From an uncultured Bacteroidales bacterium (GTDB lineage: Bacteria > Bacteroidota > Bacteroidia > Bacteroidales > UBA932): a stretch of 39,852 bases of DNA. Location: assembly GCA_946546175.1 (NCBI GenBank), contig CAMNNY010000128.1, forward strand, positions 1-39,852, written 5' to 3'. Both the position numbers and the translations under genes were made by a program. How positions within the stretch are numbered: position 1 is the first letter of the stretch; each line of letters begins with the position of its first letter. This document shows, piece after piece, positions 3,165 through 34,199 of the stretch. The notes beneath the pieces were generated by a model. It made no database searches, had not been told where the DNA came from, and was given only the letters and a program-made list of their open reading frames with translations.

Positions 3165-3758
3165 ATGAACGAAAACGTCACAACGAAAGTGAAAATCGGC
3201 GAGGTCCGATTCAGTTATGTCCACATCTTCACCCCCGAGGCCGTGGCAGAGGGAAGCGACAAAAAGTACAGCGTCTCCCTGATCATCCCCAAGTCCAACA
3301 AGAAGCTCGTCGCCGAGATCAAAGCTGCCATCGAGGCAGCCATCGAGGCAGGAGTCGCCCAGCGCTTCGGAGGCAAGCGCCCGCTCAACCTCCGCAGCCC
3401 TCTGCGCGACGGAGACCTGGAGAAAGCAGATGACGACGCCTACGCAGGCGCATACTTCATCAACGCCACCTCCAAGACCAAGCCCGGCATCGTCAAGCGC
3501 GTCAAGCTCAACGGCGAAAACAAGCTGGTCGAGGTGACCAACGAGGACGACGTCTACAGCGGATGCTTCGGATTCGCCTCCGTCAACTTCTTTGCCTACA
3601 ACAACGCAGGCAACAAGGGCATCGGCGCAGGCCTCAACAACATCCTGAAGACCCGAGACGGAGACTACCTCGGAGGACGATCCAGCGCAGAGTCCGACTT
3701 CGGAAACGGAGCCATAGACCTCGACGCCTACGAAGACTTCGACGACCTGCCTGAATAG
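3165..3758 (+). CDS. DUF2815 family ssDNA-binding-like protein
   Basis: VRFSYVHIFTPEAVAEGSDKKYSVSLIIPKSNKKLV...; follows the DUF2800 gene. Confidence 0.8.
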   Translation: MNENVTTKVKIGEVRFSYVHIFTPEAVAEGSDKKYSVSLIIPKSNKKLVAEIKAAIEAAIEAGVAQRFGGKRPLNLRSPLRDGDLEKADDDAYAGAYFINATSKTKPGIVKRVKLNGENKLVEVTNEDDVYSGCFGFASVNFFAYNNAGNKGIGAGLNNILKTRDGDYLGGRSSAESDFGNGAIDLDAYEDFDDLPE

Positions 3759-3768
3759 GCAGCACAAA

Positions 3769-3866
3769 GGACCGGATGGTATAAGGGCATAACCGCCGGG
3801 ACGAGGGAAATCCGAGAGCAAGCAGCCTCGCCGCTGGAGATGCCGGTTCGAGTCCGGCTCCGGTCC
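3769..3866 (+). ncRNA. tRNA-like structured RNA: 8-bp acceptor-like stem and canonical T-arm, no convincing anticodon arm
   Basis: GGACCGGA (3769-3776)/TCCGGTCC (3859-3866); GCCGG-TTCGAGT-CCGGC (3842-3858); CGAGG/CCTCG (3802-3806/3826-3830). Confidence 0.5.
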
Positions 3867-3902
3867 CAAATTAACCGCCGAAAGGCACAAAAACCTACAA
3901 AA

Positions 3903-4358
3903 ATGAAGATTTACATCATCAACCCCGACAACAACAAGCCCGTCACCATCGAGGACTGGCGCAAAGACGAGAACCCGACCAGAGCCCAGCTGCTCGCCAT
4001 CGAGACGGAAGACGGACACCTGCTCTGCATGAGCAAGAGCTACCTCCCCGGAGAGCACACATTCGAGGAGGCCCAGAAAGCCTGCGCAGCCTTCAAACCC
4101 CTGGAGAGCATCACCTTCAGGAGTCCGAGCCGCAAAGAGTGCATAGACATCTACGACGCCCGCTTCCAAGGCCTGGACGAAGCCATCAAGCTCACCGGAG
4201 GAGACTACGCCAAGAGAGGCCGCTACCACTGGACCGGAGATCGGGACACGGACCCGAACTACGCCTACTACGCCTGGTACTCCTACGGCTACGGCGTCCT
4301 CGGCAACGGCTTCATGTACAACTCGTACCTGGCGCTCCCGGTCGCGCTTTTGAAGTGA
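3903..4358 (+). CDS. Second (remote) DGR target: small C-type-lectin-like variable protein, 151 aa
   Basis: ATG at 3903 in ORF 3840..4358; C terminus YYAWYSYGYGVLGNGFMYNSYLALPVALLK aligns to the VR1 protein and to TR. Confidence 0.85.
   Translation: MKIYIINPDNNKPVTIEDWRKDENPTRAQLLAIETEDGHLLCMSKSYLPGEHTFEEAQKACAAFKPLESITFRSPSRKECIDIYDARFQGLDEAIKLTGGDYAKRGRYHWTGDRDTDPNYAYYAWYSYGYGVLGNGFMYNSYLALPVALLK
4260..4346 (+). repeat. VR2: DGR variable repeat (remote)
   Basis: Aligns to TR 32855-32944 with 14 substitutions, all at TR adenines, and one 3-nt gap; identical 3' end ctggcgctcccggtcgcg. Confidence 0.9.
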
Positions 4359-4390
4359 GCGAAGCGAACCCTTCAAAATTAACCCTTAGT

Positions 4391-4412
4391 GCCCGGGGCT
4401 CCGTCCCCGGGC
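4391..4412 (+). other. Perfect GC-rich hairpin downstream of VR2
   Basis: GCCCGGGG-CTCCGT-CCCCGGGC, no T-run. Confidence 0.6.
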
Positions 4413-4430: not shown

Positions 4431-6425
4431 ATGAAGACACTGCACATAGACATCGAGACCTACAGCCCGGAGCCAATCGCAGATACAGGGCTCTACAAAT
4501 ACGCCGCCAACCCGGAGTTTGAAATCCTCCTCGTGGCATACGCCCGAGACGACGAACCCACGCAGATCGTGGACCTCGCCCAGGGAGAGGAGCTGCCCGA
4601 CTGGTTCATCCCGGCCCTGCAGGATCCGGAATATCGCAAGGCTGCGCATAACGCCTCCTTCGAGCGCGTCTGCTTCAGCAACTACCTGCGCCGCAAGGGC
4701 ATCCTCGCCCCCAGCCAATGGCTCGACCCTTACCAGTGGCACTGCACGATGGTCCAGTGCTCCCGCTGCGGCCTTCCCCTGAGCCTCGCCCAGGCAGGCG
4801 CAGCGCTCGGACTCGCAGAGCAGAAGATGACAGAGGGCAAAGCCCTCATCAAGCTATTCTGTACACCAAAGAGCGAGAAAGCGCCCGCCGGCATCTTCGG
4901 CGAAGACGACGGCAGGAACCACCCCGAGGACTTCCCCGACAAATGGGAGATCTTCAAAGACTACTGCGTCAGGGACGTGGACGTCGAGAGGCAGATAGAC
5001 AAAGCGACCGCCTGGTACCCGGTCTCCCTTCAGGAACAGAGGCTCTACGCCATAGACCAGGAGATCAACGACCGCGGAGTCCTGCTGGACATGGAGCTCG
5101 TCAGGAACGCCGTCCGGGCAGACACCATCCAGGCCGCCCGCCTCAACGAGGAGGCAATGAAGCTGACCGGGCTCTCCAACCCCAACAGCGTACCACAGCT
5201 CAAGCGCTGGCTCTCCGAGACACTCGGCATCAGCCTTGACACCCTCAACAAGAAAGACGTGGCCGACATCAAAGGAGCCACCGACGACCCCCGCGTCCGC
5301 AGAGTCCTCCAGATCCGGAGCGAGATGGGCAAGACCTCCAACAAGAAATACGAAGCGATGCTCAACGTAGCCGGAGACGACAACCGCGTCCGCGGGCTCT
5401 TGCAGTTTTATGGAAGCCGGACAGGCCGCTGGGCCGGACGCCTGGTCCAGGTGCAGAACCTGCCCCAGAACCACATCAAGGACCTGGACTTTGCAAGGAC
5501 CTGCCTCAAGGAAAACGACATCGAGATGATAGAGATCGGATACGGCAACGTAGCCGACACCCTCTCCCAGCTCATCCGCACAGCCTTCATAGCGCCCAAG
5601 GGCAAAACCTTTGCAGTTTGCGACTTCAGCGCCATCGAGGCCCGCGTCCTCGCTTGGATCGCAGGAGAAGACTGGGTGCTCGACGCCTTCAGGCACGGAA
5701 AGGACATCTACTGCGAGACCGCCTCCCAGATGTTCCACGTCCCGGTCGAAAAGCACGGTGCCAACGCAGAGCTCCGGCAAAAGGGAAAGATCTCCGTCCT
5801 GGCCCTCGGCTACGGCGGAGGCGTCAGCGCCCTGGACGCAATGGGAGGCAAGCGCCAAGGAATGACAGAACAGGAGGAGGCCGACACGGTGCGCAAATGG
5901 CGCGCTGCCAACCCGAAGATAGTCCAGTTCTGGAGCGACGTCGAGAACGCCGCCAAAGAGTGCGTGATCACCAAAGCCACCACACACGTCGGACCGCTCG
6001 AGTTCAAAATGCACGGCACCACGATGACCATCCAGCTGCCCAGCGGACGCCTCATCAGCTACCCCGACATCAAGCCCTCGACAAACCGCTTCGGATCCAG
6101 CAGCCTCCAGTACCACGGCCTCAACCAGGTTACCAACAAATGGAGCTGGATAGAGACCTACGGAGGGAAGCTCACCGAGAACATCATCCAGGCCACGGCC
6201 CGAGACTGCCTGGCAGAGGTGATGTACCTCATCAGCTTCCACTACGCCAACCCCTACGACATCGTCTTCCACGTCCACGACGAGATCATCTGCGAGGTCC
6301 CGGAGGACCAAGCCGAGGAAGCGCTCGCCTGGATCCGGGACATCTTCAGCAAGAATATGCCCTGGAACGAAGGACTCCCGCTGAACGGAGCCGGATACAT
6401 CACACCTTACTACCTAAAAGATTAG
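4431..6425 (+). CDS. Family A DNA polymerase with N-terminal 3'-5' exonuclease
   Basis: LHIDIETYSPEPI (exo I), FAVCDFSAIEARVLAWIAGEDW, VFHVHDEIICEVP. Confidence 0.95.
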   Translation: MKTLHIDIETYSPEPIADTGLYKYAANPEFEILLVAYARDDEPTQIVDLAQGEELPDWFIPALQDPEYRKAAHNASFERVCFSNYLRRKGILAPSQWLDPYQWHCTMVQCSRCGLPLSLAQAGAALGLAEQKMTEGKALIKLFCTPKSEKAPAGIFGEDDGRNHPEDFPDKWEIFKDYCVRDVDVERQIDKATAWYPVSLQEQRLYAIDQEINDRGVLLDMELVRNAVRADTIQAARLNEEAMKLTGLSNPNSVPQLKRWLSETLGISLDTLNKKDVADIKGATDDPRVRRVLQIRSEMGKTSNKKYEAMLNVAGDDNRVRGLLQFYGSRTGRWAGRLVQVQNLPQNHIKDLDFARTCLKENDIEMIEIGYGNVADTLSQLIRTAFIAPKGKTFAVCDFSAIEARVLAWIAGEDWVLDAFRHGKDIYCETASQMFHVPVEKHGANAELRQKGKISVLALGYGGGVSALDAMGGKRQGMTEQEEADTVRKWRAANPKIVQFWSDVENAAKECVITKATTHVGPLEFKMHGTTMTIQLPSGRLISYPDIKPSTNRFGSSSLQYHGLNQVTNKWSWIETYGGKLTENIIQATARDCLAEVMYLISFHYANPYDIVFHVHDEIICEVPEDQAEEALAWIRDIFSKNMPWNEGLPLNGAGYITPYYLKD

Positions 6426-10408: not shown

Positions 10409-11769
10409 GATACACCCCGCACGCATACCAAGAGCGAGCCACGCAGTTCATCATCGACAACCGGTACTGCGCCCTCTTCCTGGACATGGGTCTCGGGAAG
10501 ACGGTCGCCACACTCACAGCGCTCCAGCAGCTGAAGGAGGACTACTTCGAAATCGACAAGACCCTGGTGATAGCGCCCAAGTCCGTGGCCCGGAATACGT
10601 GGACAGGTGAGTCCCATAAATGGGACCACCTGCGGAGCCTCAAAATCTCCGTCATTATGGGCACGCCAGCCCAAAGACGGAAAGCCATCGAAGCGGAGGC
10701 GGACATCTACGTCGTGAACCGGGACAACGTCAAATGGCTCGTGGACTACTGCGACCTCGAGCTGGTCCGCTGGCCTTTCGACAGCGTCGTCATCGATGAG
10801 AGCTCCAGCTTCAAAAACCCGCAGAGCCGCAGGTTCAAAGCCCTGCGACGGATGCGCTGGCTGATCCGAAGACTCGTCCTGCTGACAGGCACGCCCAGCC
10901 CCAACGGACTGATGGACCTCTGGTCGCAGATAGAACTGCTGGACTACGGCAAGCGCCTGGGCCGGACCCTCACGATGTACAGACAGGAGTACTTCAGGCC
11001 CGGACGGCACAACGGACACGTCGTCTACGAATGGATCCCGAAGCCCGGATCCAGAGAACGGATCACAGACGCCATCAGCGACATCTGCCTCTCCATGCAG
11101 GCGAGCGACTACCTCGAGATGCCAGATCTCATCCAAGCCGGAACCACCATCGCCCTGAGCGACTCCGAGCAGAAAGCCTACCTGGAATTCGAGAAAGAGC
11201 AGCTGCTGGAAATCGACGAAGCAGAGATAGAGGCAGTGACCGCCGCGGCCCTTACCAACAAGCTGCTGCAGTTCACCGGAGGAGCCGTCTACGACTCCGA
11301 GCACGACTGGCACGAGGTCGGCCAAAGCAAGATGGAGGCCCTGAGCGACATTCTCGAAGCAACCGAGGAACCGGTCCTGGTCTTTTATGCCTACCAGCAC
11401 GAAAAAGAGCGAATTCTGGCCAATTTTGGAAATTATCAGCCCGAAACCTTCAACGGAGAGCCCGAAATCCTCAAGAAATGGAACAATCAGGAAATCCGCC
11501 TGCTACTTTGCCACCCGGCCTCCGTGGCATACGGACTCAATATGCAGGAGGGAGGCAGGACCATCATCTGGTACACGCCCACCTGGAACCTCGAGCTTTA
11601 CCAGCAAGCCAACGCCAGGCTCTACCGGCAAGGGCAGGACAGGCCGGTCCTTCTTTACCACATCGTCGCAACTGGCACGATGGACGAGAGGGTGATGGAG
11701 GCCCTCTCCGGAAAGGGAGACTGCCAGACCGCTCTGCTCCAGCGAATCAAGGAGTTAAGGAAAGTATAG
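10405..11769 (+). CDS. SNF2/DEAD-like helicase
   Basis: LFLDMGLGKTVATLTAL (Walker A), VVIDESSSFKN (motif II), YQQANARLYRQGQ (motif VI). Confidence 0.9.
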   Translation: MRYTPHAYQERATQFIIDNRYCALFLDMGLGKTVATLTALQQLKEDYFEIDKTLVIAPKSVARNTWTGESHKWDHLRSLKISVIMGTPAQRRKAIEAEADIYVVNRDNVKWLVDYCDLELVRWPFDSVVIDESSSFKNPQSRRFKALRRMRWLIRRLVLLTGTPSPNGLMDLWSQIELLDYGKRLGRTLTMYRQEYFRPGRHNGHVVYEWIPKPGSRERITDAISDICLSMQASDYLEMPDLIQAGTTIALSDSEQKAYLEFEKEQLLEIDEAEIEAVTAAALTNKLLQFTGGAVYDSEHDWHEVGQSKMEALSDILEATEEPVLVFYAYQHEKERILANFGNYQPETFNGEPEILKKWNNQEIRLLLCHPASVAYGLNMQEGGRTIIWYTPTWNLELYQQANARLYRQGQDRPVLLYHIVATGTMDERVMEALSGKGDCQTALLQRIKELRKV

Positions 11770-30826: not shown

Positions 30827-32221
30827 ATGATCAAATACTACGACACCGAGGCCGCATACGCAGCCGACGCCAAATCCCCATTTGAATCGCAGGTCTCCCT
30901 GGTGGGAGAGAGCAACGCCATCCACTACGATGGCCGTAACGTCATCGTCGGAGCCAAGCACGCCAAGACCGGCAGCATCGTCGTCCTGGACGGCAACAGC
31001 GCCCTGCATTTCGTGGCGCTGGACACCTTCAGCAGCTCCAGCTTCATGAGCAACTACACCGTCGTCGGAGTGGTCGCCGTCGGCGTAGACCACAAGGACT
31101 ACCGCGGCAAGCTGGTCATCGTTCACAAGACCAACACCAGCAAGCAGTGGAGCGCCATCTACAGCTTTAAGCTCACTGGCTACACCCTGGACGGCACCGA
31201 CCGCTCAGGCGTCCTCACCGTCCGCAGCGCGAGCGACTGGGGCACCGGAGTGGACTACACCATCAACTACAACGCCGACAACGTCGCAGACTTCCTGACG
31301 ACCCTCAATGCCTACTTTAAGAGCACTGCTCCCTTCACCACCCAGCAGTGGAGAGCCGACTCTGACGCCCAGGGCAACATCACCCTGTCCTTCCTGTTCA
31401 CCGACTACCGCCAGGCCAGCAACAGCGCCAAGTCGGGCTTCTCCATCAGCGCCAACCTGCTGCCCGGCATCCCGGCCAGCAGCGCAATGCTCCGCGTCAA
31501 CGGTCAGCGCTCCGGAGAGGGCAGCATCAGCAACTGGGACCGCGCCCTCGCTTATTATCGCAACGACAACGGACCCTCCGCATACCAGGGAGGCCGCACC
31601 AGCGACCAGGGCAGCAACGTCAAGCAGACGTACCCCATCAACCTCCCGACCTGGCTCGGTACCAGCGCACAGAATCCCGGCGACTTCTGCGCCGGCCTTC
31701 GCGCCATCTACGGAGAGGGAGAGGCTGGCTGGCTCAAGTTCATGGAGACCTGCCTCCCGGTCCGTCCGACCAACTACGGCCCGCTGGGAGACAAGGCCAC
31801 CTACGGAGACGGAAAGCGCAACACCTACCAGATGGCAGGCGTCAAGTTCATCAAGCAGGACAACACGGAGATCGTCGCCTTCCCGGCAGCCGACTACTGC
31901 GCATCCGTGGTCTACAACCACGAGCTCCTCAAGAAAGGCGCCTGGCAGCTGCCCGACGTGGACACCCTCAGCGGGATCCTTTCGACGATCAAGTACGGAA
32001 CCTCGGCAAGCCGTGACGCAGACCCCGTCAACAGAGCCCTCAACGCCATCGGCGGCAGCGCCATCTCGAATGGTTCGGGCATCTGGTCCGCATCCCGTTA
32101 CTACGCCAACGGCGCCTGGTGCTCCTACGGCACATACGGCGTCCTCGGCAGCTACGGCATGTACTACTCGAGCCTGGCGCTCCCGGTCGCGCTTTTAGAC
32201 GTGAGCGAAGCGAACATCTAA
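30827..32221 (+). CDS. Primary DGR target: tail/receptor-binding protein with C-terminal C-type-lectin-like variable domain
   Basis: Contains VR1; GIWSASRYYANGAWCSYGTYGVLGSYGMYYSSLALPVALL. Confidence 0.9.
   Translation: MIKYYDTEAAYAADAKSPFESQVSLVGESNAIHYDGRNVIVGAKHAKTGSIVVLDGNSALHFVALDTFSSSSFMSNYTVVGVVAVGVDHKDYRGKLVIVHKTNTSKQWSAIYSFKLTGYTLDGTDRSGVLTVRSASDWGTGVDYTINYNADNVADFLTTLNAYFKSTAPFTTQQWRADSDAQGNITLSFLFTDYRQASNSAKSGFSISANLLPGIPASSAMLRVNGQRSGEGSISNWDRALAYYRNDNGPSAYQGGRTSDQGSNVKQTYPINLPTWLGTSAQNPGDFCAGLRAIYGEGEAGWLKFMETCLPVRPTNYGPLGDKATYGDGKRNTYQMAGVKFIKQDNTEIVAFPAADYCASVVYNHELLKKGAWQLPDVDTLSGILSTIKYGTSASRDADPVNRALNAIGGSAISNGSGIWSASRYYANGAWCSYGTYGVLGSYGMYYSSLALPVALLDVSEANI
32068..32191 (+). 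repeat. VR1: DGR variable repeat, 124 nt
   Basis: Colinear with TR 32821-32944; 20 differences, 19 at TR adenines. Confidence 0.95.
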
Positions 32222-32233
32222 ACCTTAAACCTT

Positions 32234-32262
32234 GGCGAGGCCGCTCCGGCGGCCCGCCTTTT
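32234..32262 (+). terminator. Intrinsic terminator between the VR1 target and avd
   Basis: GGCG-a-GGCCGC TCCG GCGGCC-CGCC TTTT. Confidence 0.75.
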
Positions 32263-32273
32263 CCCTTACCAAG

Positions 32274-32738
32274 ATGCACAGCGAATACAGAGATCCAAAG
32301 CCACTGCCCGGAGAAAGACCGGTGCCCAGCATCAAGGTTGACGCCCTGAAGCTGCTCGGGCTCTTGCTCAGGGCAGAGCTGATGATGACCGCCGTGGACC
32401 GCAGGCGCTACGCCAACCGGGCCATCGAAGCAATCGAAGACGTCATCCGGGACTTCCAACTCGCCCACGACTTCGAGGACGAGCGACTCCACTACCTCAA
32501 AAAGATGTGGGCCGACATCGCCGTTTTTATGGACCTGATGAGGATCATCGGAGAGACCAACGCCATCCGCGTGAACCTCGCCTCCAGCAGGCGCAAAGAC
32601 GGAGAACCGGTGGACACGATGACCCCGGACCAAATGAAGCTCGAGCTCTACAACCGCGTAGCATCCCTGGACGAGGGAGCAACAAAATGGAAAAATAGCA
32701 TATATAGGAACAAGGGCACGACCTACACCAAAGAGTGA
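32274..32738 (+). CDS. avd: Avd-like DGR accessory variability protein (four-helix bundle)
   Basis: ALKLLGLLLRAELMMTAVDRRRYANRAIEAIEDVIRDFQLAHDFEDERLHYLKKMWADIAVFMDLMRII; sits between VR1 and TR/RT. Confidence 0.85.
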   Translation: MHSEYRDPKPLPGERPVPSIKVDALKLLGLLLRAELMMTAVDRRRYANRAIEAIEDVIRDFQLAHDFEDERLHYLKKMWADIAVFMDLMRIIGETNAIRVNLASSRRKDGEPVDTMTPDQMKLELYNRVASLDEGATKWKNSIYRNKGTTYTKE

Positions 32739-32820: not shown

Positions 32821-32944
32821 GAATGGTTCGAACATCTGGTCCGCATCCCGTTACAACGCCAACAACGCCTGGTACTCCAACGGCAACAACGGCAACCTCA
32901 ACAACAACAACATGTACAACTCGAACCTGGCGCTCCCGGTCGCG
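32821..32944 (+). repeat. TR: DGR template repeat (Asn/AAC-rich)
   Basis: Non-coding between avd and RT; source of VR1 and VR2. Confidence 0.95.
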
Positions 32945-32960
32945 AATTATTCAAAAAGGA

Positions 32961-34199
32961 ATGGACACAAAGACCTTCATAGACTCTTACCTGGGCTGCC
33001 GCGAGAACAAGCGCAGAAGCCCGGACAGCGTCTACTTCGAGCTGCACTGGGAGAGAGATCTCAAGCGGCTCGAGCTGGACTTTGAAGACCGCTCCCTTGT
33101 TCCTTTCATTTACGGATTCATAGCACCGCGCCCCAGGCCCAGGGAGGTCATCGCCTGCCTGATGCAGGGCAAGATCCTGCAGTTTTACTTCGACTTGCAC
33201 ATCCGCCCGCTGGTGGAAGATGAGCTCACAGACCGGACCTTCAACAACCGCATCGGCTACGGACCGGACAAAGCCGTCAAGCAGCTGATGGAGGACATCC
33301 GACGAGTCTCGCAGAATTACACAAGGGACTGCTGGGTCATCGGCCGGGACATCCGGGCATACTTCCCAAGCAGCGACCTGGACCGGAGCTACAATCACTA
33401 CCGCCAGCTCATCGAGCGGCACTTCCCCGAGGGAGAGCAGAGAGACGACCTGCTCTACATCCTGCTCCGGACCAATTACTCCTACCCGGCAGAGAACATC
33501 CACCTGCGAAGCCCGAAGCACAAGTGGGAGCCCATCATTGCGGAGGGCAAGAGCGTTATCTTCAATGCGCCGCCCGGACGAGGTGCCTGCCTCGGGAACC
33601 AGTACTGGCAGGTGGAGAAAAACTACGACCTCAACGATTTCGATCATTTCCAGGTGGACGAATGCGGCCTGGCTTACGTCCGCTTCGTGGACGATATGCG
33701 CTGGGTCGTCGCAAATAAAGAAGCGGGCCTCGCCCAAGTCGCCCTGAGCGAGAAAAAGCTGCAGGAGGAATACGGCTACCAGATGCACCCGCGCAAGCGC
33801 TCCTGCCAGCATTACACCAAAGGCGGCAGCTTCATCGGCATCTGGTTCAAACCAGGACGGACCTACATCGGCAACAGAGTGGTCCGCAACTGCAAGGCCC
33901 GGATCCAGGAGTGGAACCGGCACGTCACAGAGCTCAACATCGACCACTTCCTGGCAAGCATCAACAGCTACACCGGCCAGATGAAACACCACGCCGCCTA
34001 CAACATAATCCGAGGCATTGTGGACAACACGGTGTCAAAGAAATGGACAAAATACGTCCACTTCAACGAAGACCGGCTCTGCTACCAGGCCAACCCCGGC
34101 TACACGCACAACGAGCTCCTCCAGAAAAGATATCACTTTAAACTTCATAAAAATGACAAAGCAAGAACAACTCAACGCCCTGGAGTCGCGGCAGCTTGA
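32961..34199 (+). CDS. DGR reverse transcriptase
   Basis: RT motifs: YVRFVDDMRW (catalytic), CLGNQYWQ (motif 4), GSFIGIWFKPGRTYI; AAAAGGA just 5' of the ATG. Confidence 0.95.
   Translation: MDTKTFIDSYLGCRENKRRSPDSVYFELHWERDLKRLELDFEDRSLVPFIYGFIAPRPRPREVIACLMQGKILQFYFDLHIRPLVEDELTDRTFNNRIGYGPDKAVKQLMEDIRRVSQNYTRDCWVIGRDIRAYFPSSDLDRSYNHYRQLIERHFPEGEQRDDLLYILLRTNYSYPAENIHLRSPKHKWEPIIAEGKSVIFNAPPGRGACLGNQYWQVEKNYDLNDFDHFQVDECGLAYVRFVDDMRWVVANKEAGLAQVALSEKKLQEEYGYQMHPRKRSCQHYTKGGSFIGIWFKPGRTYIGNRVVRNCKARIQEWNRHVTELNIDHFLASINSYTGQMKHHAAYNIIRGIVDNTVSKKWTKYVHFNEDRLCYQANPGYTHNELLQKRYHFKLHKNDKARTTQRPGVAAA

Follow-up and report, generated by a model that had tools for sequence, protein, structure and literature searches.

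The window analyzed here, a 39,852-nt stretch of DNA, carries a DGR whose single template very likely supplies two targets, a tail-region gene located next to the reverse transcriptase (RT) and, in trans, a remote gene in the replication module that codes for a 151-aa protein. We conclude that the variable repeat of the remote gene, VR2, is an active second DGR target; since no reads, expression, or knockout data are available, homing and its dependence on the RT are inferred from sequence alone. The window corresponds to contig C128 in an assembly totaling 1.73 Mb. An exact 267-bp repeat is present at both termini, indicating a circular phage genome of ~39,585 bp (~39.6 kb), most probably that of a gut-type Bacteroidales phage. 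According to Pfam, the phage encodes DUF2800, a DUF2815/Enc34 single-stranded DNA-binding protein (SSB), DNA polymerase A (PolA), a VapE-like primase, an SNF2 helicase, and an integrase.

An RT of the DGR type (32961-34199; PHROG 1423 reverse transcriptase, E 4e-29; placement supported by an RT tree) adjoins the template repeat (TR, 32821-32944), as required of a DGR. The order of the region, in which all features are on the forward strand, is tail gene with VR1, 159-aa ORF, TR, and RT. The tail-region target gene (30827-32221), which weakly matches Lcl_C and adjoins the RT in relatives too, contains VR1 (32068-32191) at its C-terminus, with 19 of 36 TR adenines and 1 of 88 other bases changed. 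It is followed by a hairpin, GGCCGC-TCCG-GCGGCC (32239-32254). The 159-aa ORF (32259-32738) lies where Avd (accessory variability determinant) would be expected. Its product matched nothing in Pfam, in NCBIfam above the cutoff, or in PADLOC; homologs that are 57-63% identical occupy the same position in two related phages, G003 and G006, and a divergent Avd is possible. TR, the one template serving both variable repeats, VR1, and VR2 are the sole copies of the repeat in the entire 1.73-Mb assembly.

The remote gene (3903-4358, forward strand) is located between the genes for a DUF2815/Enc34-type single-stranded DNA-binding protein (3165-3758, forward; Pfam E 2e-64; PHROG 112, gp2.5-like) and PolA (4431-6425, forward; Pfam E 6e-34). 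VR2 (4258-4346, forward) comprises its C-terminal codons. Alignment of VR2 with TR positions 32853-32944 revealed 14 substitutions, all of them at TR adenines (9 A>T and 5 A>G), so that 14 of 28 adenines but 0 of 61 non-adenine sites were changed (Fisher p = 5e-9), and a single 3-nt gap; an extra T>A mismatch at position 4257 marks the edge of the homology. The initial annotation had aligned 4260-4346 with 32855-32944, and its substitution counts, the gap, and the identity of the 3' ends all held, as did its description of a stand-alone 151-aa gene between DUF2815 and DNA polymerase lacking an obvious signal peptide (confirmed by Pfam and Kyte-Doolittle analysis). The distances it gave between VR2 and the RT, about 28 kb, or 11 kb across the circle junction, fit the separation of VR2 from TR (~28.5 kb linear, ~11 kb circular); from the end of the RT gene to VR2 the distance is 9.6 kb across the junction. 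With a second VR several kb from the RT and outside the structural module, the criterion for a distal second DGR target is met. Copying of VR1 into VR2 was considered and rejected. Out of 11 adenine sites changed in both repeats, 7 contain the same base and 4 a different one, about the split expected by chance with two possible bases, and thus there is no evidence of such copying.

Comparison with a conspecific phage fragment, G001 (IMG/VR contig L004; 98.65% identity over 15.9 kb), revealed that VR2 differs at 15 of 90 sites, with all 15 differences at TR adenines, compared to 1.25% divergence outside of it. The TR of G001 lies beyond the end of its fragment, and the window TR was used as reference. 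The 3-nt gap is absent from G001. No differences are present between the two phages in the 5' part of VR2, which fits incorporation of only the 3' portion of the cDNA, though this is an inference. Exact-pattern scans for further conspecific phages recovered only the known G001 fragment, and population depth for the window species is therefore two phages. A second pair of phages, G830 and G831, contains 2 differing sites in the remote gene outside of the VR and 19 inside, 17 of the 19 at TR adenines. Apart from VR2, divergence from G001 peaks a second time at 11250-11500, within the gene for the SNF2 helicase, where 250 bp contain 31 mismatches; recombination is the probable cause.

Protein searches with the remote gene product returned homologs in IMG/VR contigs L004-L008, a goat-omasum Bacteroidales MAG (L009), and whole genomes G304 and G390. 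All four records that were recovered by way of the remote gene and are of sufficient length to cover the DGR (G002, G003, G004, and G006) carry a DGR RT, and each contains exactly three copies of the repeat: TR, tail VR, and remote VR. In these phages and the window taken together, 82 of 86 remote-VR substitutions fall on TR adenines (among 165 adenine and 334 non-adenine sites), as do 86 of 87 tail-VR substitutions. The TRs of the five phages differ from one another by 18-30 bases over their aligned parts. When remote VRs were compared with the TR of their own phage, 0-1 non-adenine mismatches were observed over the core, versus 8-19 in most comparisons with TRs of other phages. Such a match is expected only if the local TR repeatedly rewrites the remote site. 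The initial annotation had proposed an active second target in the early region and stated that VR2 differences spread evenly over all bases in relatives would refute it; the differences are at TR adenines in 15 of 15 cases in the conspecific pair and are not spread over all bases in the other phages, and the proposal survives.

A search with the RT yielded 80 loci, among which 32 long records were searched with a profile of the remote gene and 9 contained family members. All 9 homologs, located without reference to TR, have TR-derived VRs. Altogether, the ~150-aa type of remote protein is encoded by 15 phages (the window, G002, G003, G004, G006, G390, G830, G831, G832, G835, G836, G838, G844, G857, and G858), and a ~224-aa type is encoded by G850 (with its near-copy G853), G855, G848, G849, G845, G847, G851, and Bacuni phage F4. 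No remote VR was visible in ca. 15 records, some of which are fragments, so that a missing remote VR is not always a true absence. In pooled data, 363 of 826 adenine sites and 30 of 1738 other sites were changed in remote VRs, while the corresponding numbers for tail VRs were 363 of 820 and 18 of 1872. The pooled VR pairs had passed a filter of at least 75% adenine mismatches, which the five-phage set (82 of 86) did not need. We conclude, again from sequence alone, that the remote VR is in all probability diversified as strongly as the tail VR, with the tail target retained. The "retargeting" to a small early protein suggested by the initial annotation is thus slightly wrong, since the tail target has not been given up and is diversified to the same extent; its statement that in DGR phages the diversified gene is usually a tail gene adjoining the RT held, and a distal second target has precedent (PMC8143477, PMC8008677, PMC12629997). 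One of the listed prophages, G390 (G390:C2, L039-L041), has a very divergent RT (23% identity) with the same remote-target architecture, an IS3-like insertion just 5' of the remote gene, and, like the window, a 3-nt gap in the remote VR relative to TR.

Target-site signals were found at both VRs. At the 3' end of VR2, the stretch CTGGCGCTCCCGGTCGCG, identical to TR, runs into an IMH-like CTTTT (4329-4351, forward strand), where TR has AATTA; VR1 ends in the same way, such that GCG-CTTTT is present in VR1 and VR2, and GCG-AATTA in TR. An inverted repeat, TTTTGAAG-N15-CTTCAAAA (4348-4378, forward), overlaps the stop codon and is followed by a GC-rich hairpin, GCCCGGGG-CTCCGT-CCCCGGGC (4391-4412, forward), a candidate target-site hairpin or cruciform. 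Its stem is 8 bp long, compared to 6 bp for the hairpin downstream of VR1 and 4 bp for the best one downstream of TR. In phages of the ~150-aa type, both tail and remote VRs almost always run into CTTT and TR has AATT or ATT, G390 being the exception; in Bacuni-type phages, GCATTT is found at VRs versus GCACTT or GCACTA at TR. Most VRs are followed by a GC-rich hairpin ~20-60 nt downstream, which is mostly missing 3' of TR. These stems might possibly also serve as terminators. In Bordetella phage BPP-1, a 7-10-bp hairpin together with the VR end suffices for homing into a foreign gene (PMC3240598). The presence of both elements at the remote gene therefore suggests that it is equipped for hits in trans.

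Wherever the remote target could be interpreted, it occupies an early or replication position and never lies in the tail module. It lies between the DUF2815 SSB and PolA genes in the window, G836, and G858, and in the same interval, with extra genes present, in G831; in G857, where the gene is cut by the record ends, PolA is 3' of it. RecT and YqaJ flank it in G004, and in G830, G835, and G838 a DnaD-like or initiator protein is encoded next to it or close by. In G844 and G002, the gene comes after one for a repressor-like protein and a small ORF, with an initiator gene 3' of it; in G006 and G390, it is 5' of the gene for a primase-sized protein (DNA primase in G006). In eight independent Bacuni-type phages the remote target is placed after DNA polymerase. 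No defense gene consistently adjoins members of the ~150-aa family. On the RT tree the remote gene is patchy, requiring at least 5 changes. A common 529-bp block (96% identity) extends in G830 and G831 from 3 nt before the start codon to 31 nt past the stop codon, thus including the remote gene and its 3' hairpin, in early regions that otherwise align little. The remote gene is likely a one-gene cargo that travels with the DGR without adjoining it and is kept or exchanged singly. The block common to otherwise non-homologous early regions backs the "moron-like" function that had been suggested at the outset; the "intracellular" part of that suggestion remains an inference, based on the lack of a signal-like N-terminus, the early location in 15 of 15 phages, and the absence of host-range linkage in Bacuni phages (see below).

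An AlphaFold2 model of the 151-aa protein was obtained with a pLDDT of 85.7 and a pTM of 0.83, with the lowest confidence in the VR. The top PDB match of the model is 8q4e, the C-terminal domain of Legionella Lcl (prob 0.99, E 0.015). On the basis of this match, which is of modest likeness (E 0.015, TM 0.46-0.52), VR2 is predicted to lie inside a stand-alone protein with a C-type-lectin fold of the Lcl_C/DUF1566 type, in support of the lectin-like assignment made initially. The protein differs from the Lcl_C/DUF1566 domain it matches in being free-standing, without a collagen-like or export region; its N-terminus contains no hydrophobic stretch, the maximal 19-residue Kyte-Doolittle mean over the first 60 residues being 0.43. 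None of the sequence searches with the window target (Pfam, PHROGs, NCBIfam, PADLOC, and PDB) returned a match that exceeded the cutoff, and in PADLOC no described defense family matched the target protein; a family member, L007, has a weak Pfam Lcl_C match (E 0.0035) that is under the gathering score. The closest viral model is that of a Siphoviridae protein (41% identity, E 9e-7). Just 5' of the gene, a tRNA-like sequence (3769-3866) with 7-bp acceptor-like ends and a T-arm GGTTCGAGTCC was noticed, and the 3751-4000 bin contains no mismatch versus G001. A tRNA is unsupported: ARAGORN found none, and the Rfam tRNA-Sec score is 20.7 bits versus a cutoff of 47.

Bacuni phages F1, F2, and F4, which infect Bacteroides uniformis, have two DGR targets, one adjoining the RT and one distant (PMC8143477), and so resemble the window phage. 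Their distant VR is adenine-specific and variable among isolates, and the distant target is also in the replication module, directly 3' of PolA and before a C5-methyltransferase gene. (F2_00026, upstream of PolA, was considered as the remote target and rejected; the remote target is F2_00029.) The Bacuni remote protein is different, ca. 224 aa with an extra N-terminal part; BLASTP against the window family gave no match of substance, and only the C-terminal half (~73 columns) aligns by profile (hhalign 97.3%). No phage isolate with the same protein as the window target was found by tblastn. With isolate hosts taken from PMC8143477, the remote VRs of F1 and F2, which share a host, are 16 nt (11 aa) apart and their tail VRs 1 nt apart, while F1 and F4, from different hosts, have identical remote VRs and differ by 18 nt (13 aa) in the tail VR. 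Thus, the tail VR tracks the host and the remote VR does not, although this comparison is limited to three isolates and a different remote-target family. F2 (L043) is reported to contain a 57-bp insertion in its RT (PMC8143477), yet its remote VR is 16 nt away from that of F1.

Distal second VRs far from the RT, in non-structural regions, have also been described in Quimbyvirus (PMC8008677) and in four gut prophages (PMC12629997), close to defense genes in the former and to methyltransferases in the latter, and were read as counter-defense. In contrast, the window family has no adjoining methyltransferase, and its constant neighbors are replication and early genes. A C5-methyltransferase gene adjoins the remote target in the replication module of several Bacuni-type phages; its absence next to the ~150-aa family indicates that such adjacency is not general. 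BPP-1 shares with the window an RT, a TR, a VR with a target-type 3' end, and a GC-rich hairpin after VR and not TR (PMC3240598), but has a single target, a tail-tip protein, in cis; the loops of the window hairpins are TCCG and CTCCGT and not the BPP-1 5'-GRNA, with GAAA and similar loops found in Bacuni-type relatives. Targets of Thiohalocapsa PB-PSB1 are likewise diversified in trans by a distant DGR, and cytoplasmic C-type-lectin targets have been proposed to act there in conflict systems (PMC10907252), but these are cellular multi-domain sensors and not a single phage domain from a replication module. Tentaclins of phages nd4 and nd12 (PMC10743442) are two different C-type-lectin targets of one phage DGR; unlike the window targets, both are within the DGR cassette and are long, Ig-containing proteins, one with an N-terminal VR.

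The sequences show one template with two recipients: adenine-mutagenized TR copies are installed at the 3' terminus of the tail gene (VR1) and, in trans at a circular distance of ~10 kb, at that of the 151-aa early gene (VR2). Shared target signals that are missing at TR are present at the two sites. The remote gene encodes a stand-alone domain with a predicted C-type-lectin fold, and rewriting of its VR surface is as extensive as in the tail protein. By inference, the product may act in the cytoplasm early in infection, or upon lysogen induction, as a variable binder of some fast-changing intracellular component, most likely one of host defense or restriction, and one DGR would then tune both entry and post-entry success. 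Early location, the lack of an export signal, and the linkage of host to the tail VR but not to the remote VR in Bacuni phages favor the cytoplasmic binder. It ranks above the alternatives considered below, none of which is shown; taken on its own, a cytoplasmic binder, probably directed against host defense, falls a little short of an even chance, as location, binding, and counter-defense are each inferred.

The alternative that survives best, and remains possible, is that the remote gene, although early, encodes another component of the virion or of receptor binding, as proposed for Bacuni phages. The C-type-lectin fold is the usual one for DGR receptor binders, phage structural proteins need no signal peptide, and both Bacuni targets were called host-adhesion proteins, with a fimbrial-tip-like adhesin proposed (PMC8143477). 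Against it are the early or replication location throughout, the lack of a tail-attachment module in the ~150-aa single domain, and the remote VR that was rewritten (11 aa) between F1 and F2 with the host unchanged. It is unlikely that the protein is a prophage superinfection-exclusion or immunity factor diversified to block rival phages: the genes of G844, G002, and G390 are found soon after the repressor/immunity region and many such phages are temperate, but the protein has neither a membrane nor a signal segment by which it could mask the surface, and most members are within the replication operon. Even less probable is a role in DNA replication, recombination, or retrohoming as an accessory to single-stranded DNA-annealing proteins. 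The gene does repeatedly adjoin those for such proteins or PolA (DUF2815, RecT/YqaJ), but a hypervariable surface is unexpected in a replication cofactor, the neighbors belong to unrelated families in different phages, and many related DGR phages lack the gene. A decayed old duplication of the tail VR in which rewriting has ceased, with which the homology of the VR1 and VR2 domains and the 3-nt gap in the window VR2 would agree, is all but excluded by the confinement of substitutions to TR adenines, by each phage's VR2 following its own TR, and by a conspecific pair that differs at VR2 solely at TR adenines, one member being gapless.

The usual explanation of phage DGRs is that they adjust tail tropism. 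In the present set, two dozen or so phages with two families of remote targets turn their DGR on a protein of the replication or early region, and remote diversification equal to that of the tail suggests that variability is also of advantage in a second arena, after entry. Distal second targets were already known (Bacuni, Quimbyvirus, and the four gut prophages); what is new is the ~150-aa family, its location in replication modules that are themselves unrelated, the common target signals, the equal mutation load, and the single-gene exchange. A bolder reading, which we offer as a conjecture that may well fail, is that a widespread family of Bacteroidales phages possesses an early-expressed, cytoplasmic, hypermutating binding repertoire that is diversified by the RT and TR that also serve the tail and that counters intracellular defenses, expression being inferred. 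If it is true, a single retroelement evolves entry and post-entry traits together. Plaque-forming Bacuni isolates with both targets exist, and the post-entry question is therefore open to direct testing. A large metagenomic survey of 2021 restricted its repeat search to a distance of 20 kb from the RT (PMC8144416); since distal targets are 26-33 kb from it on linear maps, many of them were possibly missed.

Two minor observations concern other records. A second, divergent DGR-like RT (G006:C28:6011-6874, L014) is present in the same Bacteroidales MAG as G006. At the end of record G834 (L162-L163), a TR-like VR was found on the opposite strand, with 16 of its 20 mismatches at adenines; its target is truncated and may possibly be a third kind of remote target.
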